Source of the DNA: Tetmemena sp. SeJ-2015
Lineage: Eukaryota; Ciliophora; Spirotrichea; Sporadotrichida; Oxytrichidae
Direction: 5' to 3'
NCBI GenBank assembly: GCA_027382625.1
Contig: JAJKFJ010020874.1
Coordinates: forward strand, 62,001-126,000
DNA: 64,000 nt
Position 1 is the first letter of the stretch. Every line of letters starts with the position of its first letter. The notes beneath the pieces were generated by a model that ran no database searches, was not told the DNA's origin, and worked only from the letters and a program-made list of their open reading frames with translations. The position numbers and the translations under genes were made by a program. Positions 3,758-52,626 of the stretch are shown here, piece by piece.

Positions 3758-3952
3758 TTTTCAAATTTAAATTTCAAAATATATCTCTTAAATGTAATCT
3801 TCTCCTTTCAAGCAATGAAGAGATAATTTATCTTCCATTTTTTTTTTTATAAAACTGTGAATGTTAAAAATAATTGTATGTGAGTTTTTGTAGTATATTG
3901 AAAATCCTTATGAATTTATAATGCCGATATTTGTTTTTGTAATAGTTTAATA

Positions 3953-4804
3953 ATGGATTCTACATGCTGCGTCACACATCTGAATTATGACGAGTAACGC
4001 AAAAACTTATCTTCTGATTAGCAACTAATCATAAGGAATGCAAGCTCAGTCAGTCTCAAATCTAACTCCAGTCTGCTGAGAACTTGCAGATTCTGCTATG
4101 AGCAGGAGATATTATTTAATGAGTTGCTATTATACTTATCTGAATTCCAATTTGAGAGCTCACACAGTTAAAGACCTAGAAATGCTTATGGCCTGGCTAT
4201 AAGAGAAGATAAAAACCCTTTGCTATCTCCTTGTGACTGTAAAGGCTCCATCCAATACATTCATAAGCAGTGCTTGAAGAAATGGGTGAACAAATCCCAC
4301 CAGACTAATATCAAAATATCACTTATTTAAATAAACTGAAAGTCATAATCAAGTGCTCTATTTGCAAGAGTGATTACACTAGCACACGAGTCACGAGAAA
4401 GTTTCATCACTTGATTCTCAAGCTAGTGAAAGTACTTTATAAAAAGAGAGAAACCATTCTGAGAGACCTGTCCCTCTTCAGTCTAGCGCTGTTGCTTTTG
4501 ATGGGCACCTTCTACTATCTCTACAGATACCAACAAGTTGAAAAAGATTCCCAGGCCTTCAATATTGTCCTCACTTTCTTTAAATCTTGACTATGAATTT
4601 CTTAGTTCTCATTATTTTATCTTTGTGAGTAGAATCACGACTCTAGAGATAATTAGAGCTGTGAAGAAGAGAGCTAGTAAAGTCAAGTTCTATCTCAACT
4701 CAGTCATCTACAAGAATGAATTCATCAATAAGCCCAAGAAGCTTGATCAATTAACTAAGTTATAATTCCTATTTATGAATCATGAGGAAGGATTCAGAAA
4801 ATGA
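3953..4804 (+). CDS. RING-CH (RINGv/MARCH-type) membrane E3 ligase-like protein
   Basis: Probable membrane-bound ubiquitin ligase. From the ATG at 3953 the protein has a short Ser-rich N-terminus and then the RING-CH zinc ligands: CRFCYEQE, SPCDCKGSIQYIHKQCLKKWV, and CSICKSDY. The Cys4-His-Cys3 order with the Trp after the fifth Cys is diagnostic. A hydrophobic segment (LFSLALLLLMGTFYYLY) follows as a membrane anchor, then a basic tail. The frame is broken twice; deleting insertions flanked by ATCAA (4310-4347) and TCTTT (4577-4619) restores both the zinc-binding region and the tail, which ends at TGA 4802-4804. The first deletion recreates the final CxxC ligands exactly. MARCH proteins usually have two or more membrane spans; only one is clear here. 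Confidence 0.82.
4310..4347. other. IES, pointer ATCAA
   Basis: A 38-bp AT-rich insertion in the RING-CH gene. The direct repeat ATCAA lies at 4310-4314 and 4348-4352. Excision joins ...QTNIK to CSIC in frame, rebuilding the zinc-binding domain. Confidence 0.85.
4577..4619. other. IES, pointer TCTTT
   Basis: A 43-bp insertion in the RING-CH gene between two TCTTT copies (4577-4581 and 4620-4624). Excision removes an in-frame TGA at 4588 and joins the membrane segment to the basic C-terminal tail. Confidence 0.7.
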
Positions 4805-6489: not shown

Positions 6490-8337
6490 ATGGCAGATAT
6501 GTCATCATCACCTTCTCGATCTCAAACTAGATAATAACTATGGTGGGTATTAAATTTTCACCTCTCACTTAGCTTTAGGTTTAACTATGACACGAGCAAG
6601 TACTACTGAGTTGATAGCGATATAGGCAAGCAGACTAAAATTGAGAAAGATGGAAGTTTCTCCAAAGTGCTTATTCCTTCCATCACTGGGAAGATGAGTT
6701 TCAAACAGAGAATTGATCTCTCCAAATCTATTGTAAGTCAAGCCACTTTTCTATTTCTCTCCAATAATCTTCAATTAATATGAAGTTAAATTTAAATCTT
6801 GAGTTTTTAGAGCTAGAGCCTTGCACCTAGGATTCCTAAAACTAATCGCTCTCCTTCGAAGCTCATTTACACACCGCAGTAAGACAAGTTAGATGGATAT
6901 TCTTAGTGCCCCAGACCACTCTCACTTCCCTACGAGAACAGCATCGACTATAACTTAAGAGTGCAAACCAACCACTTTAAGCGTCTACAAAAATCCACCC
7001 TGGAGTAAATGAAGAGCTTCATGGACTCTAGAAACCAAAGCATGGACAAAAATTAGCCCAATACCTAGCCAATTTCTAGCTATATGAGTGGCACGAAGAC
7101 TGCCTATCAGATCAATGTTGAAAATTGCAAAAATGCATATAAGTAGTTTACATACTTTTAAATTACAGAGAAAAACTTCTCTCTTCAATCAATAAGCACT
7201 TAGATATGAACGTCGTGAAAGTCGTGCAATAAGTTGAAGAGCAGAGTGAAAATGCATACTCTAACCTCAAGCTTAAAACGGAAGCTTAACTAAACGCCTG
7301 AAGAAAAACTTTGATCAAATAGAAAACTTAAGGAAAAAACTTACTAGCAACCAAAGTGGAAGAACGATTCATGGGAGGTTCCTCTCCTCTCCACCGACTT
7401 AAATTCTCAATTAGGCTAACTCACCAAGAAAGGAGTCTCCTAGACAGAGCTAATTTCAAGGAACTAGCCCCAGATTTTCACCAATGATGAATTCATAAAA
7501 CCAGTCTTTTTACAATTCTAGACCTGGCACCACAATTACAGGGATCAAAACCTAGATTCAAAAGAACCTGACTGCAGTCAATTAATCCCTAAACTTGAGT
7601 CTTATGACTCCACCAGCAGAGAGAAATATGTAAAATATGCAAACAACTAATGAATCTGCTATGAATCAATCCTTCTTTCACAGCTAAACGGCACTTCAAA
7701 CTATATGATGATGACTGGTAGATCGGGCTTCCGAATAAAGCCTGAAGATAAAGTCATGTCTGGCTTCTCCACACTTAAGGACCGTTATCGAGGTACTTTA
7801 ATAAAGTCTTACCTAGAAAAAACTAGAGAGAGGCATGGAGTTCTAGAAGATGATAACGATGACACGAAGAAATCAAAACAAGCCTAGAGTAACGAAACCC
7901 AGACCTTCTTATCCGGCTTCAACACTTCTTCTTATCAAAACTCAGGATGGATAAATCCCATTCCATAAGAGACCCTCAATTTTACAGTATTCAACAACAT
8001 AAGAACTGCCTCAGAGATAAAGCAAAAGGTGAGGTAGTAAGAAATTAACTAGAAGATTTCTCTTCCAGTTAAGTAAAAGGAATACAGAGCTAAAACTAAA
8101 GGCAGGTTTGCAGCTACTTTCATAAATGACCCAGCCACAAACTTCAGCAGAGATAAAAAGTGGCAGCTAGTTGCAAATCCACAGGCGAGAGCAGCTGAAG
8201 ATAAGTACTTAAAAAGAGACAGATTCTTGATGGAGAAGAGGAGATATCAAAGGATACTTAAAGAGATATAGTGTGAGGAGGCTGCTGGTATCAAAGGAGT
8301 TACAAAGATGCCAATACAATTTTAAGCAAAAAAATGA
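6490..8337 (+). CDS. Ser/Gln-rich protein, unrecognised
   Basis: A roughly 550-residue hydrophilic protein rich in Ser, Gln, Asn and Lys; I do not recognise it. The ATG at 6490 gives MADMSSSPSRSQTRQQ. Coding then runs through at least one GT-AG intron (about 6735-6810) and a small IES (7700-7713, pointer ACT) to TGA 8335-8337. A coiled-coil-prone part lies near 7205-7350 (VVQQVEEQSENAYSNLK, FDQIENLRKKL). The C-terminal 150 residues are basic and charged (KYLKRDRFLMEKRRYQR). An in-frame TGA at 6607-6609 sits inside otherwise sensible coding sequence and is not removed by any pointer pair I found. The opposite-strand kinase gene ends 176 bp downstream, so the two genes converge. Confidence 0.6.
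7700..7713. other. Possible 14-bp IES, pointer ACT
   Basis: ACT repeats at 7700 and 7714. Excision removes a TGA and joins TALQT to GRSGF in frame. With a 3-bp pointer the evidence is mainly the restored frame. Confidence 0.5.
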
Positions 8338-37559: not shown

Positions 37560-40500
37560 TCGGCGTTATGAGCCTGTACAGAAAAAGTGAAATTTGATTG
37601 TAGAAGTTGTAGAAATAATCTTAGATTTATAGGTTCAAACTCTGATCTGCTCCATTTACGACGATAAATCAACGGTTGGGGTAATTTTATGGGTCTATTA
37701 TTCTTGCTTGCACTGGAGGGAGAACATATGGCATATAAATACATCTAAATAATTGTACTACGTGCTTTAAATATGGGTTATTCTGCTTTTCCTGTTCTTC
37801 TATCATCTATATTTGTCGTCTTATCTCTTCCTAACTATTCTATCTTCTTAGCTACTGTTCTAATCTAGACTGTTCTATGGCCAACTGAATATCTTGTTAG
37901 TTCAGAACTGGCTATCTAAAAAGATTTAAAAATACTAACTATCCGTGAGGGATGTACTCTCCCGCCTAAACTTGATAGTGGCTATTTTGATTTTAACCAA
38001 CTGCTTCTCCCATCACAGGATAGCCTACCGCTGCCTGAGCTCCACGCTCTGCATGTCAAAATCAAATTTTCACATTTTTGCGTATTTAAATTCCAATTAA
38101 TTTGCTTAATTTTCCTTTCTCACTTAGAATAAGATGTTGATATTAGGGCTGAGGATTTCTAGGTTAATTTCTTTAGTTATGAGCATTAGGGATATTGTTT
38201 CTGCGCATGAACTTCAAGCGGCGGTGCTTGACGTAGCAGAATACGAGAATTATGAGTAGGATTATGATTATCAGTCCACCCACTCCTACTGCAATTGCTA
38301 TTAGCAAAGTTCTACTCGCTATTCCAGAATCTGAATCACTGGATGAAGGTTAGTGATAAACAGTGCCGGCTGTTATATTATACTTCTCGCTAGTTATAAA
38401 CGCTAAATACATTAAACAGCCTATAAATTTCATATGTAAGAGTTTAATTCTGTAGTCACCTAAGCCCATCTTTTGCGAATTCATATCGTAAACTTAGTAG
38501 TAGCCTCTCAAGAAATTATCGCCCATGAGCCAATAGTTGACTCCAGAGCTGTTGTCTTGCATCAACTGCAGTTGGCATCCCGCATATCCTTTGTATGTTT
38601 ACAAGTACTAGAATAGATATCTATAAATGCCAGTCACATTATCTTTTTATAAGAATGGCTGCATTGAGAACATTTATCCTCCGAGGGATAGTGTAATGGT
38701 TGGGTAGCTGGTATCGGAACTGCTCGTGCATGCGCAAAATATGTAGCCAGAATCGGTCCAGCAAGTTCGTCCTGATTTAATTGCGTTCAAAACTTGAGTG
38801 TACTCACTACCTGGAATGTAAGTCAGAGAGGTGCCTGAGTCCAGAATCGCATCGGTGCTGATCGTCTAGGAAATGAGAGTGCCTCCAACAGTTATGTTTT
38901 TAAGGGACACTTGCCAGTGATAAGGAGAGGATAGAGACATCCATTGCAAAGAACCATAGGTTGAGTCGCTAGGGGTCAAGTAAAATTATTGGGATAATTA
39001 GCAAACTTGGATTAATGTTTTTAAGTTTAGGTTCCCAGCCAAAGTCTGGAAGTTTAACTCATAGTACCAATAAAAAGGGTGAAACCGTAAGTGCCGATCT
39101 GGCCCTAATTGTAGAGCTATTAGACGAATAAATCCTGAGACTTTGATCCGATTTTGGAGACACTCAGCCCAACTAAGCCGTCACTCTCTAAGCTCTAAAA
39201 TGTTATAGGGATAACTAAGTATATTTACGTGAACGTCACCACCACTATAGACAGAGAGATAGTTGAATTTATTGACTGAGAATTCGCCAGTTTGCACCAA
39301 AGATAAGGTCTCTTGAGCAACATAACCCTGAACATTACCTTGAGCGTACTAAAAATAGGATTATGATGATGAAGCTTAGTGGTGGTTATAGTAAAAATTT
39401 TGGATAATCTGAACTTACGGTGATCTGAGAAATCTGGTTAGTATTTACAAAGGAAGAAGAGTTAGAAGTGTTAAATCTATTCCCAGAGCACTAGTCAGTA
39501 GAGCAATTCAGACTAGGAAGCCATACCCACTACAAAGTTTAAATATAATTGGCTTGTAAGAAAGAAGTGATGTTAAGTTTAAACTTGCAAAAGGTTACAG
39601 ATGATCCGGTATCAAACATGAAGCTGAATTATTTTTTGGGGGTTCCAATATAAACGTAACCATAGTATTGAATGTTGTTATAGTTATCCAATTTCATCTC
39701 AATTGATGTCTATGAATCGAGATCTCTCTAGTCATCGTTCATTAAGGCTATAATTCCCATGAGTATTGAACAACAATAAATAATAGTGAACAACAATAAA
39801 TAATAGTATACTTACTTTCATCATTTCTATCTCTCGCCTACTAGCTATTTCTAAACCAATTCAATCTCCTTCTGTTCCCAGAAACCTCTTTCTTCGTTAG
39901 CTCTATCTCAATATAGTCTTTTTTAAGAACTTATTGTTATTCTTAGTCCGTGTTCTCATTTCTGTTCAAGCCTTCACCTGATGCCAGTGAAGTTAGAGCT
40001 AGCAAGAGTATTAAATAGAATGCTTTATTGGAGTTGAGACATTTGCGTATAGAGGATAAGTTAAGTTATTTTCTGGTATCGAAAGGACATTAATTTCTCA
40101 TTAGAGCGAATAATATTTAATTATTCACGCTATCAGTCTATTATCAGAAGAGGTCTCTTTCTTGAATAAAGGATCTATTATAAAGAATGGAATTGTGTGA
40201 AGATATCTTTCAGATTGTGTGACAGATAATTGAGCTAAATAATTTGCGTGAAGAATAATTATACAATCGCAATACAATAGCTTTAATGGGTGAATATCTC
40301 AGCTCTCCTAAAAAAGATAAAAACTCCATTGACGGGGGTAACACCTAAGTAAGTATCCTCGCTTATAGGAGCTGATAGAAGCTGAAATTTTTTGTCCTCA
40401 GTGTGTTGAGAGCTAAAAATGATTCTTTATATAGTTGAGGTACGGTGCATGCGGCATGCAAGGCTGGAGAAAAACCATGGAGGACTCTCATGTGACCCAC

Positions 40501-41000
40501 CTAGATGTGATAGAGGGAGAGATATCTGTGTTTGGTGTCTTTGATGGACATGGAGGGTGTGAAGTGGCGCGGTTTGTAGAGAATCATCTGGTGGACGAGT
40601 TGAAGAAAAATGATAATTTCAAGAAAGGAAACTACAGATAAGCACTGATAGACGTGTTTTTGCAGCTGGATAAAATGCTATTGACTGAGGCTGGAAAGAG
40701 AGAGCTAGTTAGAATATCATAAAAATATGGTTCCATGGCTTAAGGAGGAGCGTTTGATGGCGGGGACTTAGCTGTGCAAGCTGGGTGCACAGCATGTGTC
40801 GCTATTATCACTAAAAATGAGGTATACGTGGCCAATGCAGGTGATACTAGATGTGTAATAGCAGCAAAGGGAAGAGCGAAAGATCTGTCCACTGATCATA
40901 AACCAGACCTACCAAATGAGAAGAGAAGAATTCAGAGAGCAAATGGATTTGTAGAAGAAGGGCGTGTAAATGGCATTATAGCAATTAGTAGAGCAATTGG
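37560..41000. repeat. Segmental duplication, better-preserved copy
   Basis: Collinear with 20985-24930: conserved flank at 37560-38030, aspartyl protease on minus, PP2C on plus. The flank retains ACTATCCGTGAGGG and a 130-bp block similar to 21000-21140. Whether the flank codes for anything is unclear, since short similar peptides can be read on either strand. Confidence 0.85.
38062..40042 (-). CDS. Membrane-anchored aspartyl protease (pepsin family)
   Basis: A secretory or surface aspartyl protease. It has a hydrophobic N-terminal segment (FYLILLLALTSLASGE), a Lys/Arg-rich propeptide-like stretch, then the first active site YIGTPKKQFSFMFDTGSS, a substrate-flap region, the second active site AILDSGTSLTYI, and a C-terminal membrane segment (GLIIIILLIILVFCYV) with a short basic tail. 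Two GT-AG introns (ending before YAQGNV and before SLESDGLVGLSV) and two IES-like insertions (pointers AG and ACC) were identified. The only nearby ATG (complement 40040-40042) is one base out of frame with the signal-like segment, so the true start may lie behind an IES or the copy carries a frameshift. Stop TGA complement 38062-38064. Confidence 0.8.
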
Positions 41001-41550
41001 AGATTGGGAATATAAGAACTCAAATTTAAAACCCGAGGACAATATGGTGAGTGCTTTTCCAGAAGTAGTTGTGGAGCAGCTGAGGCCAGATCACGACTTT
41101 ATGATTATTGCTTGTGACGGTATCTGGGACTGCTTGACAAGTTAGCAAGCTGTAGATTTTGTGTATGAGACTAAATAGAAACTGCTCAAAAGATAATCAT
41201 AGTCACCTTCACACAGCCCGTCAAAAGTCAAGTCTCTAGCTTAGCCTGCAGGCCGCAAGAGCGTTGCCTCACCAACTAAGAAACCAGGCCTGCAACTTTA
41301 AAAAATGGGAACTGCACCCGGACAGAAAAACTCTTCTACAACTTTCGGCTAACTGTCAAATTAAAGCACAGCCTCTTCTTCAAATAACGCATCGCAAGTA
41401 GATCCTGCCACTAAGAGTAACGTCGTCGTGTCTCGTATCGTAGAACTAATGATGGATAAAATTTGTCCCTCGAACTTAGCTACTTCTGAGGGCTTGGGGG
41501 CTGATAACATGACCTGCGTCGTAATTGAATTCAATAAGGCTTCAGAGTGA
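40286..41550 (+). CDS. PP2C-type Ser/Thr protein phosphatase
   Basis: A metal-dependent phosphatase. The ATG at 40286 gives MGEYLSSPKKDKNS, the usual PP2C start. The intron at 40349-40434 (GTAAGT...ATATAG) leads to QLRYGACGMQGWRKTMEDSH. Metal-binding motifs follow in order: TMED, VFDGHGG, IACDGIWD and GADNMTCV. The region VANAGDTRCV and ISRAIGDWEYK is also typical. A Ser/Gln/Lys-rich insert of about 75 residues lies between the last two metal motifs (41150-41430). It stops at TGA 41548-41550. No IES is needed. TAA and TAG are read as Gln at six or more conserved-context positions. The decayed copy is at 24283-24910. Confidence 0.95.
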
Positions 41551-42260: not shown

Positions 42261-43044
42261 ATGGCAGATAGCTCAGGATTGCTTGGAAGAAACGCAGACT
42301 CTAAATTCTACGATGGCTAAGACCGACTTAACTTTGTGAGAAAGGTCTACAGCATACTTGGAGTTCAAATTCTGATTACCTCTCTCATAACTCTAATCCC
42401 TATGACTAACGATCACGCCAGACTGTGGATGCATGATAATTATGGACTCTTAATAGCTGCCTGCATTTTTAATATACAATAAATTTTAAAGAAGCATCGG
42501 TTCTATTGTTGTGAGTTGTGCGATGATCTGCTTCAGATAACTGACCAGAATGGTTCCTTACAACTACGTTCTGCTGCTTCTTTTCACTTTATGCGAATCC
42601 TATATGGTGGCTTCATGTGCAGCAGTTTCTGATCAAAGTGCTGTGTTGGCTGCTTCCTTTTCAACTGCTGCAATTGTGATTGGGATTACTGTGTTCGTAT
42701 GGTTTGCTAAGGTAGACTTCACTTTCCTTGGGCCTATCATCTTAATCATCGGTCTACAGATGGCTATGCTCTCTATCTTCATTTTCTTCTTCCACTTCAA
42801 GACCCTGAATATGATCTACTGCAGTCTGGCAGTGATTCTCTTCTGCTTCTATCTGATCTTCGACACTCAGCTCATCATGGGAGGAAAGCGCTATGAGATT
42901 GAAATTGACGACTACATCCTCGGTGCATTTATTCTCTACACTGACATCGTTCACCTAATTTTAAGTCTGTCAATGTTTAATAGTGAATCATTGTTATTGA
43001 TTATGATCTTCCTCTATTTGTTGAGAATATTCGGAGGCAGATGA
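42261..43044 (+). CDS. Bax inhibitor-1/TMBIM (lifeguard-like) membrane protein
   Basis: A seven-helix endomembrane calcium-leak family protein. The ATG at 42261 gives MADSSGLLGRN, then FVRKVYSILGVQILITSLI, IVVSCAMICF, PYNYVLLLLFTLCESYMV, AIVIGITVFVWFAKVDFT, and the family signature FDTQLIMGGKRYEIEIDDYI with LYTDIVHLYLLRIFGGR at the end. Two IESs interrupt it: a short one near 42468-42483 that shifts the frame, and one at 42954-43010 (pointer CCT) that is in frame and inserts 19 foreign residues into the last helix. After removal the C-terminus matches the family consensus. It stops at TGA 43042-43044. Confidence 0.92.
42468..42483. other. IES, about 16 bp, T-rich boundary
   Basis: Needed to join the first two helices of the TMBIM protein in frame. 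The boundary falls in T runs, so the pointer (TTT) and exact ends are ambiguous. Confidence 0.6.
42954..43010. other. IES, pointer CCT
   Basis: A 57-bp in-frame insertion between DIVHL and YLLRIFGGR of the TMBIM protein. CCT at 42954 and 43011. Confidence 0.68.
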
Positions 43045-43276
43045 ACAACAAACTACCTTTCTAAAGTGTTCTATATACTCTAAATAAGAGCGATACTGAT
43101 TCATTCTATTATTTGCTAATTCTAACAAGAATCTGATGAACCTCTCAAAGTCAATCTTAACTTATGAAAAGTCTTAAATTTTAAGATCAGAATTATTGGT
43201 AGAATTTTACTGTTCCTTTTTTATAGAAGAATAGTTACTTTATTTTTCTTCTTTGTGATATAAAATAAATTGTAAG

Positions 43277-44151
43277 ATGAATTCAACAGCTGCTTCTCAC
43301 TACCAGCAATAACAACAACAACAGCAACAATTCACTCAAGCCTATAATCACTCTAGCAGCTCTCAATCGCTCTAGAATTAAAGTTATCAACAGATGAATT
43401 AATAAAAACCAACTGCAAGCTATAGTCAGATGATGCAGTAATAGTAGAATATGAGTAATAAGTATATGGAGGCTCAGGCATCTGGCTCAAACCAGACTCA
43501 TAAAGAAAAAATTCAAACTGCTCAAGGAGATCACTCTTCTCATTACCTTCAACAGAATTTAACAAAATTTTATTCTCATATAATATCTTTATCAGAATGC
43601 AACTAGCTAATCACAATAGCAATTCATGCAATAGCCAATTGGGCATATGGCTGCAAGCAGCTAGGTCACTCCTTGCCAAAGAAAGGCAGCATGGACCATG
43701 GATGACTTCAAAAATATTCAATCAGTGGGCAACGGTAAATTCGGCAAGGTCTTTAGAGCTGTTGAACGCAACTCTAACAAGCAAGTTGCACTCAAAATGA
43801 TTTAGAAATCAGTCCTTGAGCAGTATGATTTCTTCCCTCATCATCAATACTTTATTTCCTACTCTTTGTTCATTCTTTCTCAAGTGAAGAAGGAGCTTGA
43901 GATTCAGTGGAGACTGAGGCACCCAGGAGTGGTGAGGATGTATGGCTATTTCTACGATGATAGCAACATTTACGTGATCATGGAGTACTCAGCAGGAGGC
44001 AACCTCTATCAACGCCTTAGGAAGGAGAAGTACTTCTCCGAGGAAAAAGCAAAGCATATCATCACACAGATCATAGGTGCTCTAGTTTACATGCACGAAA
44101 GAAATGTAATCCACAGAGACATCAAACCTGAGAACATCCTTATTATGGATA
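43277..44151 (+). CDS. Aurora-type protein kinase, N-terminal half of a scrambled gene
   Basis: The ATG at 43277 opens a Gln/Ser/Asn-rich N-terminus, then the kinase N-lobe and half the C-lobe: WTMDDFKNIQSVGNGKFGKV, VALKMIQKSVLEQYD, ELEIQWRLRHPGVVRMYGYF, IYVIMEYSAGGNLYQRL and VIHRDIKPENILIMD. The LRHPxVVRxYGYF and HRDIKPENIL stretches are close to Aurora kinases. Two IESs (43553-43592 and 43830-43868) are removed to keep the frame. Coding stops being kinase-like at the pointer TATTATGGATA (44141-44151), before the DFG motif. The rest lies inverted at 45935-46380. The sequence 44152-44400 after the pointer has no kinase content. Confidence 0.88.
43553..43592. other. IES, pointer CAGAAT
   Basis: A 40-bp insertion in the Gln-rich N-terminus of the Aurora-type kinase. 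6-bp repeats at 43553 and 43593. Excision puts the N-terminus in frame with the kinase domain. Confidence 0.85.
43830..43868. other. IES, pointer TTC
   Basis: A 39-bp in-frame AT-rich insertion between QYDF and ILSQVKKELEIQW. Removal gives the normal Aurora spacing between these elements. Confidence 0.6.
44141..44151 (+). other. Scrambling pointer, 5' partner of 46370-46380
   Basis: TATTATGGATA at the end of the plus-strand Aurora half. Its reverse complement is at 46370-46380. Joining yields PENILIMD then TEKMHVKLCDFGW without a gap. Confidence 0.93.
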
Positions 44152-44403
44152 AAAGAGAGTCATGTGCGTGCACACTAGGGTAAGTAAAAAAGAAGGACTA
44201 AATGTAAATCTGTTAGTGAGAAGAAGATATATTGGCTAAAGTCTCATTAAAGGTCGATTGAGATTATTTCCCGAAGCGTCTTATACAATCAACAGTTTAG
44301 GATCAGAATGAGTGAGCTGTTGAACTTCATGCTTCCCTTTTCATCAGATGATATCGGCCTGTCTCAATAGTTATGAAAAGTGGCTTTCTATTGCCTTAAA
44401 TGC

Positions 44404-45713
44404 TCATTGATACTACTTCTTGACCTGTTGGTTGTTGTAGTACTGATTGTGGTGGGACTGGAGCATCTTCTTTCTGATTTCCTTCTTTCTCTTGTGAATG
44501 TCTGCGTATAGCTTATTTCTGTACTCTCTAATGGAGAACTTCTGGTTATCATCGATGGGGATATTAATCTTCTTTCTGCAGTTAGGCTCGTCCTCCTCGT
44601 TGTGGAACTGAGCCACATAGGGGTGCTTTAAAGACTGCTCAGCAGTGAGTCTGCGATCAGGGTTAAACTGAAGCAAGTTCTTAAGAAGATCTAGGGCATC
44701 ATCACTAGCGGTGGGGAACACGTCTCGGAAACGCTTGGCTTTGCGAGGTGGCAACTGCTCAAGCATGGTCATGGCCAGAGGACAGTCGATGGCCTCGATG
44801 TCTTCCTGAGAGGGTCTTCCTATCAGCTCCATCACTCTGTCAAGCTAAAGATGATAAACAATGAAAGCTAGTTAAGAGTTGAGGTGCCAGGGAAGACAGG
44901 CTTGCCGAGGAGGAGTTCTGCAAGGATGCAGCCCATGCTCCACATATCTACTCCCTTGGTGTACTTGTTAGAGCCAAGGAGAATCTCAGGTGCACGGTAC
45001 CATCTAGTGGCCACATAGTCAGTTAGCAAGGGCACTGTGTCTGGGTCCTTCACATCCAGTGATCTGGCCAGACCGAAGTCACCCACCTTCACGTGGCACT
45101 CTGAGTTAAGAAGCAAGTTGCTTGGCTTAAGGTCACGATGAAGCAAGTTTGCGGAGTGCATGTACTTCAGGGATTTAAAGCACTGGTACATAGCCATAAA
45201 GGTTAAGAGTTGCATATGATCATGATTTGGAACATGATGTACTGCTTATGGATGTCTTCCAGGATATTCGCTCTAATAACTGCGTGCAGGTCAGTATCCA
45301 TGAAGTCGAAAACCAAATAAGTACAAATAGACATCTATACGTGATGATAGTAAACCAAGTAGATGTCTCTATCATTTTCAGCTCTGATAACGTTTTAGAG
45401 TCTGATGATGTTCTCGTGGCCGTTTAGCTCTTGCAGGAAAATGATCTCTCTGAAAGTTCTCTGTGCGTCGGTAGCATTTTAGAAAGCGTCAAAATTTTTC
45501 TTGAGAGCAACGATGTCCTTAGTCTTCTTATCAATGGCCTTCCACACAATACCGTAAGCTCCCTTTCCTATTGACCAATAAGCACATGCAAGATTAGCGA
45601 GAATAAATATTTTAACTTCTCTAAGGAGAGAGGAAGGTGATAGGTTTTAGCTTACCAAGTTTCTGAAGGATTTCATACTTCTTGAGGACGTGGGCCTCGA
45701 TCTCCTCAGTCAT
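44404..45713 (-). CDS. MAP kinase (ERK7/MAPK15-like, TDY activation loop)
   Basis: The start ATG complements 45711-45713. Motifs in order: [84 protein letters not shown] (T-D-Y phosphorylation loop), [28 protein letters not shown] and [20 protein letters not shown], ending KKQYQ at TGA complement 44404-44406. The intron at 45568-45655 splits the glycine loop. Three IESs with pointers (plus strand) AAGCTA, ACAT and AAACCAA are needed. The CD-region spacing and [11 protein letters not shown] resemble ERK7/8. The whole gene sits between the two inverted halves of the Aurora-type kinase. Confidence 0.93.
44842..44864. other. IES, pointer AAGCTA (plus strand)
   Basis: A 23-bp insertion in the MAPK gene, repeats at 44842 and 44865. 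Excision joins GTSTLNQ to LDRVMELIG. Confidence 0.92.
45188..45231. other. IES, pointer ACAT (plus strand)
   Basis: A 44-bp insertion in the MAPK gene, repeats at 45188 and 45232. Excision joins HKQYIM to [12 protein letters not shown]. Confidence 0.9.
45310..45351. other. IES, pointer AAACCAA (plus strand)
   Basis: A 42-bp insertion in the MAPK gene with 7-bp repeats at 45310 and 45352. Excision joins DRDIYLV to [11 protein letters not shown]. Confidence 0.92.
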
Positions 45714-45934
45714 ATTTTTTCAAAACTTCAAACTACAATTATATTATTTGAATTCCCTTAGATTTATAATCCTCAATTTATTACTCACTTACTTGTAAAT
45801 TACATCTCACATTAATCTGTAAGTTTAGCAAAATAATCGTTAAATTTAAAGATCTGGTTCTCTATTTGAAGAGAACATAGATCTTGTTAATGAGAATAGT
45901 TGATGATAGATATGAGTATAGTCACTTTGTGAAA

Positions 45935-46380
45935 TCACTCCATAGAGTTAAAGTCTGAGGTGTGATTGAACCAGGAGTGGTTAAGCATCTACTCGAATGT
46001 CAGCCTGTCACTGGGTCTAGCACGGAGGATCTGGTTTATGAAATCCTTGGCCTGTTTGCTTAGCCCATCATAGACTGCATTTCTCTGCAGCTCTATCCTT
46101 GTGATGTTGTTGTAGGTCTGATCTTCGTTCTTGCCAGCGAAAGGAGCCTGCCCAGTGAGTAACTCAAAGGTTAGAATGCCCACTGCCCAGATGTCTATCT
46201 GCTAGTCGTAAGGCTGCTGCTGCACCAGCTCAGGAGCTACATAGTCCACAGTTCCACAAAACGTCATCCTCCTCTCATCAAACACAAACACACCAATATT
46301 CACATGATTAGTTATCGATGGTGTGGGTGGACCAGCCAAAGTCACACAACTTCACGTGCATCTTTTCAGTATCCATAATA
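45935..46380 (-). CDS. Aurora-type protein kinase, C-terminal half of a scrambled gene
   Basis: Begins at the pointer (46370-46380), not at a start codon: MDTEKMHVKLCDFGWSTHTI. After excision of the IES at 46277-46313 it continues DERRMTFCGTVDYVAPELV, QQPYDQQIDIWAVGILTFEL, LTGQAPFAGKNEDQTYNNI, RARPSDRLTFEQMLNHSWF, ending SDFNSME at TGA complement 45935-45937. DFGWS and the FCGT(x)DY(x)xPE activation segment are Aurora hallmarks. The threonine expected in the RRTT-like loop is represented by RRMT. Together with the plus-strand half this makes a full-length kinase. Confidence 0.92.
46277..46313. other. IES, pointer ATC (plus strand)
   Basis: A 37-bp insertion between STHTID and ERRMTFCGT in the inverted Aurora half. 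ATC at 46277 and 46314. Removal eliminates a TGA. Confidence 0.78.
46370..46380 (-). other. Scrambling pointer, 3' partner of 44141-44151
   Basis: TATCCATAATA on plus, the 11-bp reverse complement of the pointer ending the N-terminal Aurora half. Confidence 0.93.
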
Positions 46381-46592
46381 GTGACAATAATAAAGGCTTA
46401 AAAATATTCTTGAAAGAATAATTACATCAATTAATTACCATAAGTTAATGAAGTTAGGCCAGCAACTTTCCAGAAAACTCCTCCACGCCAGCAGATCTAC
46501 TGTCCTTCCAGCTGCCGCATCCAACTCTCATCTTAAATTGCTTACTTAATTCAAATTGCTTGTTCTTATTGTATCTACTCAGAAGAGGGCAG

Positions 46593-49235: not shown

Positions 49236-50187
49236 TCATATTCCTTTGATACCGTTTCTTTCCCTAAGTTTTTCCCACACCATGAGCTGGATTATAGTAA
49301 AGGGCCCAAGGCGAATCCATAAAGGTGTGAATCCTTTATAAAATGCCAAAGGTCCCTCACTCTTTAAAACTTAAATTGCGCAATCTACTATGCCTTTGTA
49401 TTCTATAAAATGATAATAAAATTCAATAAATTCTTAGACTGTTGGAGAACTGCCCGTTCCTTGAGTTTAAATTCTTGTCTTAATCAGATCTATGGGCGCT
49501 GTTACGAGAGCTATGCACACCCCAGATATCATGCTCGACACAAAATGGTTTACATTCCCATCTTTAATGATCCCACTATTTATGAAGAAGTGTTTGCTAT
49601 GATCATAGCTAGCCAAAAATGTTGCGTTCAATATCACTGCTCTTATAACAGTAGCCTGAACTCCTGTGAAGAAACCAGAGAGTCCCCAAAAGCCAATTAC
49701 TTCCCTGAAATGAGAGAAAATACTCCTCGACTGGGTTAGAAAGCTGGATTGCATTCTCACTTTTAACAGGTCCATCGGGGTTGAAAATGCAGAAGCTATC
49801 ATCCCACACAAGCCTCCTGAAAGTAATTTAAGATGCAGAGGCGTATTTCGAGGATCTGTTGCTCCCAACTTTTACTTGATTGGCTCGTAGCACCCAAGTC
49901 TTATTGTGGAATAAACAATAAATGAAATTAAATGATTAATTAATTTAAACGCTTTCTCTAAGCCAAGATGCTGTTAAGCCTCTGTATAATCCTGATATTC
50001 CTTGGTATCTTATTACGAACTTGAGCGTCTCTATAGTTGAAGTTTTGTTATTGGTTACTTGCATCTTGATTTTAAGAGTATCAAAAGGGTGTGTGCAAGT
50101 GGCAGCTGTTATACTCGCCAATCCTCCGAGAGCGGCAGATAGGCCAAAACTATTAGCTTGATTATTTCTGTCTTAAGTTTTTGACAT
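49236..50187 (-). CDS. Mitochondrial carrier family (SLC25) protein
   Basis: An inner-membrane metabolite carrier. The start ATG complements 50185-50187: MSKTQDRNNQANSFGLSAAL. The three tandem repeats carry the Px[DE]xx[KR] signature: HPFDTLKIKMQ, TPMDLLKVRMQ and APIDLIKTRIQ. Matrix-helix glycines appear in GISGLYRGL, GLSGFFTGV and PLAFYKGFTP. It ends NGIKGI at TGA complement 49236-49238. An IES (49912-49945, pointer TAAAC on plus) follows LRESV. Subfamily resembles the dicarboxylate/oxoglutarate/uncoupling branch, but the substrate cannot be read reliably. A short in-frame AT-rich stretch near 49400-49430 may be another IES. Confidence 0.93.
49912..49945. other. IES, pointer TAAAC (plus strand)
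   Basis: A 34-bp insertion; repeats at 49912 and 49946. Excision joins SWLRESV to YSTIRLGCYEPIK, the expected carrier repeat. Confidence 0.92.
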
Positions 50188-50228
50188 GAAATAATTATTA
50201 ATTTGTTTAATAACTTTGTAATTTTAAA

Positions 50229-52626
50229 ATGGAAATGACTTCACTAAATTTAGCTGACAGAGATGTAGACATCTTGTCCAATAACTTAGAGAATTATTTG
50301 CAAAAGCCTCTTGCTATTATAGAAGGAGAAAGCTTGGAACTAATTGAAGAGAATTTAGTTTTCAACTAGGATTGGTTTAGGAGTCTTGACATTGCATCTA
50401 GTCAGGCTTCTTAGAATCAACATGATTATAAATTATGTTTTAAGAGTAATTTTCAGAGTGTTGTTATAAACTAGATTTAAAAATATTTATGAAGTTGGAG
50501 AAGAAGAAGATGATAGCATGAGAGAAGTAATATAGGAGTACTAGTTAATGAAAAACCTTCAAAATCAAAAGCTTGAATCAATATAACTTTATGATTATAA
50601 TTGAAGTAGAGACCATAATCAGTCTCATGAAATTATTGCTCAATTTGGGCAGCTAGAGTTTCCTAGTTTCCAAAAGCAGGACTCCTCAACTGTGGATAAG
50701 ATAATACAAACTAACCTATCACTGACAGAACAAATTATAGAATTTTCTGAAGTGATTAAGCGAGCAAAACAAGTTTAGTGGGATCAATAACAACAGAATT
50801 TTGATTTCTCAAGTGTTTATGAAGCAATCATTAACCAAGACTTCTAAACCGTTTTTTTTCAAAAATAAAATCTAATCTTACTTTTACAATATCTAATTTA
50901 AGACTACTTAATCGCTTTGGGGAAAGAGTCCTTCCAAGATAAGAACTTAGTCTCAAAATTCAAGAACTAGGACAATAAAAAGTCTACTTCGAAATTCAAT
51001 TCTCTCCAGAGACATCAAATTTTGTAGAGTACAATCCAGATATTTTCTAAAATGAACACTCAAGAACTGGAAGGCCTTAGAGAAAAGCTTGTTTAGCTAT
51101 TTCTAAGCAAGCAGATAATTATTTTTAGATAGAGAAGTTGGTTTTCCACTTTGTAGGAGAGAGTGATCTGAATGACGAGCAACACCCTGAATAATTTATT
51201 CTAATGATATGAATGGCTGTTTGCTTATATCGAGGATCAAGTTTAGTAATTTTCTCTTGCGCTGAAAGACAACGAATCGGAGTTAGCCTAACTTTTATTT
51301 TATAAAAGTAATAAATTATTGCCTTTTTGATAGAGGTGTATATAAAGAGTGCTTTCTAAAGCGTAGTTCGTTAAAGACATGAAATGATTAGTGACAACAG
51401 CAATATAAACTTGCAGGCAGATTCATATCTATATATTTAATATTCTGAGAACGTATCTTTGAAATCACTTTTTGTGAGTGCGATGATAAAACACGACTAG
51501 TCATTAGAAACCTCATACTTACAAGCCACTAATAAAGAGACTCCTTAATCTTGTCCGAGTTTAATAGAGATGCTCCTTCAGGCAGATCATTTAATTTTTT
51601 ACTTACTTTAATTTATCCTCTTTGCCTTGATAGCATAGAGAAAGATTAGCAAGTGGCTCTTGACTTCATTTTCAAAAGTCATTACTCAGATGGACAATTT
51701 ATTGAGCTAAACTATTTTCCATTTATTGAAAAATTGATGCACATACTATAATTTTACTGAAATCAAACATTCTACAAGACTTCTTCACCTCCTATTTCAT
51801 TCAAAACTTTACCAATCTTCTTCAACGCAAGCCAATTATAGTTACCCATGAAAATATTTAATTACTTCTAATGGACAAGATCAAGATTCCGTGATTATAC
51901 TTTTTGAAAATGTGGTTCTTTATCTCACCTAAAGAATCAGAAGTATCTTAAACGAGCAAGAGTCTGATATGCTTTCCCTTAAAACTAAGTCAGACTTCAG
52001 CAGACTAATTCTTTCTCTATAGCAGCTCAAAAAGCTTGCTAAGTCAATTTCATACAATTAAACCTATTTTTAAATAAATTTCTTCAGGTTTTAAGCATGA
52101 GAGCTAATAAGTTGATGAATAAGTGAAAACAAGAGGAGTGATTTTAAAAAGCCGAGTTAAAGATATTTTTGAAGATGAGATCCTCTCAAAGCTAAAGACT
52201 ATCTTAGTAACTAGCTTTGAAGCCACTCTATCACTTTCTTATTTTAATATGTGTATTTATTTTGAAGCAAAGATAATCCCTGATCACAATTCAGCAACCT
52301 ACAACTAGCAGCTAGTCTCTCGAGTTAGATCTTACAAGCAGAAGATATTCCCCTAACTTGTTGATCAACTTAAACTGAAGGGAGCATTAGAGATAACTTT
52401 AGCATTACTGATGCGAATCAAGCAAGATCTAGATACGATTTAAAAGACATTTACCAAGGATGAGTATCACCTAAAGCAACAATTTAATTTTTCATACCTC
52501 TTTTAAAATCAATTTAGAGAACTGAGGTTCGATTTAAACATAGTTGTAGAAGAATTTGGTATTCCTACTCAAGCAAAGAATAATCCATCTAGCTAGATAA
52601 AATGTACTGGACTATTTAGCTTTTGA
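50229..52626 (+). CDS. Large helical protein, unrecognised
   Basis: The ATG at 50229 gives MEMTSLNLADRDVDILSNNL. Coding, mostly as Gln/Leu/Lys/Ser-rich helices, can be followed through several frame changes to TGA 52624-52626. Readable segments include QLEFPSFQKQDSSTVDKII, SLTEQIIEFSEVIKRAKQ, YLIALGKESFQDKNLVSKF, GVILKSRVKDIFEDEIL and QLKLKGALEITLALLMRI. The overall look (long helices, no motif) recalls vesicle-tethering subunits such as those of the COG complex, but I cannot confirm it. At least six interruptions (about 50480, 50595, 51130-51200, 51300-51420, 51700-51790, 52060-52110) are IESs or introns not resolved to the base. Confidence 0.5.

Follow-up and report, generated by a model that had tools for sequence, protein, structure and literature searches.

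A 64,000-base stretch of DNA from Tetmemena sp. SeJ-2015 (bases 62001-126000 of contig C1953; hereafter the window) contains an Aurora kinase gene whose two halves lie on opposite strands, at 43277-44151 on the plus strand and 46380-45935 on the minus strand, with a whole mitogen-activated protein kinase (MAPK) gene between them. Based on the sequence, this is very probably a scrambled gene in spirotrich germline DNA, made up of at least four pieces that would be joined at inverted pointers, with a whole non-scrambled MAPK gene nested inside it. The assembly comprises 146,216,379 bases in 5,213 contigs, and reading frames were taken under code 6, in which TAA and TAG encode glutamine and TGA is the stop.

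The two Aurora halves and their junction

On the plus strand, the gene opens with an ATG at 43277 and shows similarity to Aurora kinases up to HRDIKPENILIMD. Past 44151, the frame reads KRESCACTLG, which is unlike the relatives compared. The remainder, which includes the DFG motif, opens at 46380 on the minus strand with IMDTEKMHVKLCDFGWSTHT and closes at a TGA (45937-45935). An 11-base sequence, TATTATGGATA, is common to both ends, lying at 44141-44151 (plus) and 46370-46380 (minus), and each copy sits exactly where the similarity to Aurora ends on its side. On these points an earlier note, made from the letters of this stretch alone, was correct. Joining 44151 to 46370 at TATTATGGATA, with one copy kept, maintains the frame and yields ILIMDTEKMHVKLCDFG. 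This product is found letter for letter in the relative P0012 (1427-base contig; 88% over 58% of the query), which is identical across IKPENILIMDTEKMHVKLCDF, and 118 of the 120 Aurora matches listed (of 1,136) span about 20 residues at the junction with three or fewer gap columns. The joined DNA would read CCT-TATTATGGATA-CTGAAAAG at this point. The segments of the gene lie on opposite strands, and the pointer stands at the end of one segment and at the start of the next with the frame kept. The earlier note had also described the joined C-lobe as uninterrupted. While the join is in frame, the C-lobe is broken by a 37-base insertion flanked by GAT.

Within the 64,000 bases, TATTATGGATA has exactly two matches; in 100 dinucleotide shuffles the mean was 0.03, and none contained two. 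When positions 44100-44200 of the plus strand are compared with 46300-46420 of the minus strand, it is the sole common word longer than 7 bases. For a placement test, 4,000 random pairs of opposite-strand 30-base segments were drawn from the region at 38-52 kb, and the 3,886 pairs left after dropping those less than 200 bases apart were scored. No pair had a common word of at least 11 bases; the longest, of 10 bases, occurred in three pairs. The scrambled pointer, at 11 bases, is longer than the other five in the two genes (3, 3, 6, 6 and 7 bases), and scrambled pointers are longer than non-scrambled ones in the excerpted text of a published account (PMC9797194). A DNA hairpin at the pointers was considered and rejected, the z-scores there (0.47 and 1.03) being unremarkable.

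The Aurora gene can be divided into four segments. Segment 1 (43277-43558, plus), recognized by its ATG and open frame, encodes an N-terminal region rich in Q, N and S and ends in the pointer CAGAAT (43553-43558). Segment 2 (43593-44151, plus) encodes the N-lobe as far as the scrambled pointer in which it ends, and matches positions 2-136 of the Pkinase profile. Segment 3 (46314-46380, minus; MDTEKMHVKLCDFGWSTHTID), taken from the gene model and by reading, starts with the scrambled pointer, and segment 4 (45935-46279, minus) encodes the C-lobe to the stop and matches profile positions 153-263.

Aurora kinases carry the motif set HRDIKPEN, DFGWS and RRMTFCGT...APE, and in the joined product VALK, HRDIKPEN, DFG and APE can be recognized by eye. 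Its best match is an aurora-1-like protein of Stylonychia lemnae (68% over 99% of the query, 2444-base contig). The PDB matches shown (best 60 of 278) are likewise Aurora kinases, some of them under older names such as serine/threonine kinase 6, and the product is identified as an Aurora kinase. Against the S. lemnae protein (P0001), conservation amounts to 97 of 137 aligned residues in the N-half and 86 of 127 in the C-half. Because the two are similarly conserved, neither half looks decayed. Among the 120 Aurora matches listed, the 24 with at least 60% identity lie on contigs of 650-3159 bases.

In a sequence search of the 146.2-Mb assembly, the region 43200-46500 matched only itself. The Aurora query gave matches of 96-98% at this locus alone, and all other listed assembly matches were at or below 44%. 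Searches of the assembly, in which the best candidates alone were scored, revealed no further copy of either half, and a kinase scan of the window gave no fitting collinear Aurora C-lobe on the plus strand. A second Aurora-like kinase (C1787, 47012-47791), 39% identical to the query, has its kinase domain in one piece, within a 777-residue open frame whose long tail looks coiled-coil-like by eye.

The nested MAPK gene and the small insertions

Between the Aurora halves lies a complete MAPK15/ERK-like gene (44404-45713, minus), delimited by the gene model and by a match in S. lemnae and encoding 370 amino acids. As the earlier note had proposed, it has its own interruptions, namely one GT-AG intron of 88 bases (45568-45655, minus), evident from reading and the gene model, and three repeat-flanked insertions. 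The gene consists of four germline pieces in non-scrambled order. Its coding region lies wholly inside 44151-46370, and all its pieces fall between two Aurora segments, which makes it a nested locus as judged on the coding region. The best match is an S. lemnae 'extracellular response kinase' (P0121; 90% over 98%, 1428-base contig). The protein belongs to the MAPK15/ERK7-8 family, with full-length similarity and with P0124 and other matches labelled MAPK 15 in their source. Among the 120 MAPK matches listed, the 12 with at least 84% identity come from contigs 1032-2755 bases long. Since metagenomes, too, usually consist of short contigs, the weight for separate molecules is carried by the two S. 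lemnae records, in which the best Aurora and MAPK matches occupy two separate small contigs (2444 and 1428 bases).

Five small insertions in the two genes are candidate internal eliminated sequences (IESs). In the 5' part of Aurora, a 40-base candidate (43559-43598, plus) lies between CAGAAT repeats at 43553 and 43593. It includes one copy (43593-43598), its removal restores the frame, and its AT fraction is 0.85 compared with 0.58 in the 5' coding part. The 37-base candidate in the C-half (46280-46316, minus), placed by the gene model, has the pointer GAT (copies at 46316 and 46279). Its removal gives STHTIDERRMTF, and STHTIDERR is present in 11 of 12 fetched relatives. In MAPK, the gene model places three candidates, all on the minus strand, of 42 bases (45317-45358; pointer TTGGTTT, 7 bases), 44 bases (45187-45230; CCA, 3 bases) and 23 bases (44848-44870; TAGCTT, 6 bases). 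The AT fractions of the five range from 0.66 to 0.85; the two coding stretches that were measured have 0.58 and 0.50. Introns at 43553, 46316, 45358, 45230 and 44870 were rejected as an explanation, no GT...AG being seen by eye at borders that restore the product. Because five AT-rich insertions flanked by short repeats and without GT-AG borders occur in two genes, the DNA appears to be germline DNA.

A further in-frame stretch in the Aurora N-lobe, at about 43833-43877 (plus), is probably another insertion, since all nine relatives that reach this point (of 12) read DFF(S/T)Q(M/I). The pointers TTCTT and TTTCT, worked by hand, give the wrong frame, and TTC (39 bases) keeps the frame and leaves one residue more than in the relatives. 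The stretch is possibly a tiny IES in which the sequence is wrong by one base, or else an insertion that is retained.

Proposed rearrangement and alternative explanations

During formation of the somatic nucleus, the small insertions would be cut out between their short direct repeats before the inversion. In the excerpted account of actin I, the removal of ordinary IESs usually comes first and inversion later (PMC2394655). The inverted copies of TATTATGGATA would then recombine, joining 44151 to 46370 with one copy retained. Because the pointer copies are inverted and face each other, their recombination can turn the interior around rather than cut it out, and the MAPK gene would be kept during the joining. 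After a flip performed in silico, Aurora ends with its stop at 44586 and, beyond a gap of 221 bases, MAPK runs from its ATG at 44808 to its stop at 46117, all on the plus strand and followed by the untouched flank, so that a single flip would both repair Aurora and retain MAPK. Maternal RNA templates guide joining in Oxytricha, according to the same excerpts (PMC2394655), and by extension may guide the Aurora join. Breakage between the flipped Aurora gene and MAPK, in a gap with an AT fraction of 0.75, would yield two small chromosomes. The claim of the earlier note that DNA rearrangement must invert and join pieces across another gene is partly supported, as the best reading of the DNA. The joining itself in Tetmemena sp. 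SeJ-2015, the flip as its pathway and the two somatic chromosomes are what we infer from it.

The layout after the flip is that of an ordinary Aurora-MAPK tandem, and one inversion could therefore explain why Aurora is scrambled and MAPK nested, and perhaps how the pointer arose. Such an inversion would have occurred once in the germline, starting from the tandem, with one break inside Aurora and the other just upstream of the next gene. It is tentatively suggested that a single 2.2-kb inversion with staggered breaks produced the scrambling, the nested position of MAPK and the 11-base pointer, and that development reverses it in every generation.

Several observations weigh against a scrambled Aurora gene. 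Inverted repeats of this length are common, with 413 inverted 11-mer pairs (200 distinct) 200-5000 bases apart in the window. The strength of the pointer lies in its position at both breaks in similarity. At the extra stretch in the N-lobe, no pointer gives the exact reading of the relatives. Moreover, a coarse census took in 20 hand-picked loci of the assembly with a partial kinase-domain match. At 19 of them an adjoining part of the domain follows on the same strand, and at one (L021) the match reaches a contig end. Within the window the aspartyl protease (38-40 kb), Ras and kinase (11 kb) genes are collinear as far as they were matched. Inverted halves are thus not the rule in this assembly, and none of the 19 assessable kinase loci gave another case of inverted continuation. 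In Halteria, 12.9% of chromosomes are scrambled and 37.7% of these are of the inversion type in the counts excerpted from Lyu et al. (PMC10901763). At such frequencies about one inverted case would be expected in 19, which does not contradict the census. At three of the census loci (L020, L032 and L039), part of the kinase domain stays unmatched. At L027, a C-lobe kinase stretch (profile 121-273) lies at 7573-8169 on the minus strand, at a distance of 2.2 kb from an almost complete kinase on the plus strand. It overlaps the latter in profile and was provisionally counted as another gene, but may instead be part of another scrambled locus.

Among the alternatives, the one that survives best places Aurora and MAPK on one two-gene somatic chromosome, with MAPK as a passenger and not an independent nested locus. 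The two genes do stand in tandem after the flip, 221 bases apart, and two-gene chromosomes exist in Oxytricha, as described in excerpts of Feng et al. (PMC9797194). However, the best matches in S. lemnae are on separate contigs and the intergenic gap is AT-rich, so this arrangement is considered unlikely. It is still less probable that an inversion simply broke the germline Aurora gene, leaving a dead copy or one allele of a polymorphic inversion and no programmed join. The absence of other inverted continuations in the census would agree with this, as would the existence of another Aurora-like kinase in the assembly. In contrast, both halves are similarly conserved, the frame problems are limited to short insertions and the catalytic motifs are present. 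In addition, searches of the assembly for the locus and its right flank to 52000 gave neither an intact copy nor an alternative haplotype, the left flank being unsearched. Finally, although the flipped stretch reads as an entirely ordinary tandem, an assembly misjoin that turned 2.2 kb of it around is very improbable, since the locus and right flank are single-copy in the assembly and an 11-base repeat is short as a cause of a misjoin. Overall, a scrambled Aurora gene with a nested MAPK gene is the interpretation best suited to the locus.

A number of kinase loci in the assembly are present twice with equal or almost equal scores (for example C514/C2852, C1298/C2552 and C1866/C3720), which may reflect uncollapsed haplotypes; the Aurora locus and its right flank are not duplicated in this way. 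The neighbourhood looks gene-dense, with genes for a PP2C phosphatase (40423-41547, plus) and a Bax inhibitor-1 family protein (42406-43041, plus), and for an aspartyl protease (38065-39817, minus) and a mitochondrial carrier (49239-50361, minus). The gene list of the window is partial, the Pfam scan having covered 60 of its 195 open frames of at least 130 residues, and a codon-usage gene finder was uninformative. Telomere-like C4A4 repeats begin at base 1 of nine contigs (C298, C586, C672, C739, C770, C1030, C1301, C4311 and C4966) and are also found internally in C126 and C2828, the latter as a long interrupted array (3805-4156). These repeats may mark somatic chromosome ends or germline telomeres, or belong to elements that carry telomeres.

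Comparison with known scrambled and nested loci

That scrambled genes are established in spirotrichs, as the earlier note stated, is borne out by the excerpted tables of Lyu et al. (2024; PMC10901763), which count inversion-type scrambling and nested ('B-type') cases in Strombidium, Halteria, Oxytricha and Euplotes. The note had further regarded a complete second gene inside the inversion as the noteworthy part, but nested loci have already been tallied. In Braun et al. (2018; PMC5940158), 1,847 of 15,811 somatic contigs of Oxytricha are 'embedded only' and 1,301 hold nested segments of other contigs, and a figure legend in Feng et al. (2022; PMC9797194) describes complete non-scrambled loci between the layers of nested genes. 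Aurora kinase is not mentioned in the best-matching literature on scrambled micronuclear genes and nanochromosomes, a statement that extends to that literature and no further. The Aurora-MAPK locus shows no new kind of rearrangement. Its value lies in being a minimal, readable case, with a single scrambled junction, a single pair of inverted pointers and one intact inner gene, and it illustrates that joining at inverted pointers can spare the gene enclosed by them.

Models for the origin of scrambling, as excerpted from Feng et al. (PMC9797194), invoke local duplication, invasion by IESs, sudden recombination involving AT-rich loops or recombination between short repeats in a stepwise manner. 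The single inversion suggested above would be a simple and testable alternative to these models, creating scrambling and nesting together.

The following comparisons extend as far as the excerpts of the cited papers. Like the Russian doll loci of Oxytricha trifallax and Tetmemena (PMC5940158; PMC9797194), the Aurora-MAPK locus has a complete locus within an interval eliminated from another, and a long pointer. It differs in having one layer and a single inverted scrambled junction, and in being known from germline DNA alone. Inversion-type chromosomes (PMC10901763) likewise have segments on opposite strands that require inversion. The nested counts in that paper, in contrast, take non-scrambled IESs only, whereas MAPK sits inside the inverted interval itself. 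The actin I gene of S. lemnae (PMC2394655) also needs inversion at short pointers and the removal of ordinary IESs; in addition it reorders a segment (segment 9), while the excerpts mention no complete foreign gene within it. Despite these differences, it is well supported that the Aurora-MAPK locus needs no category of its own and fits among the nested and inversion-type loci already described.

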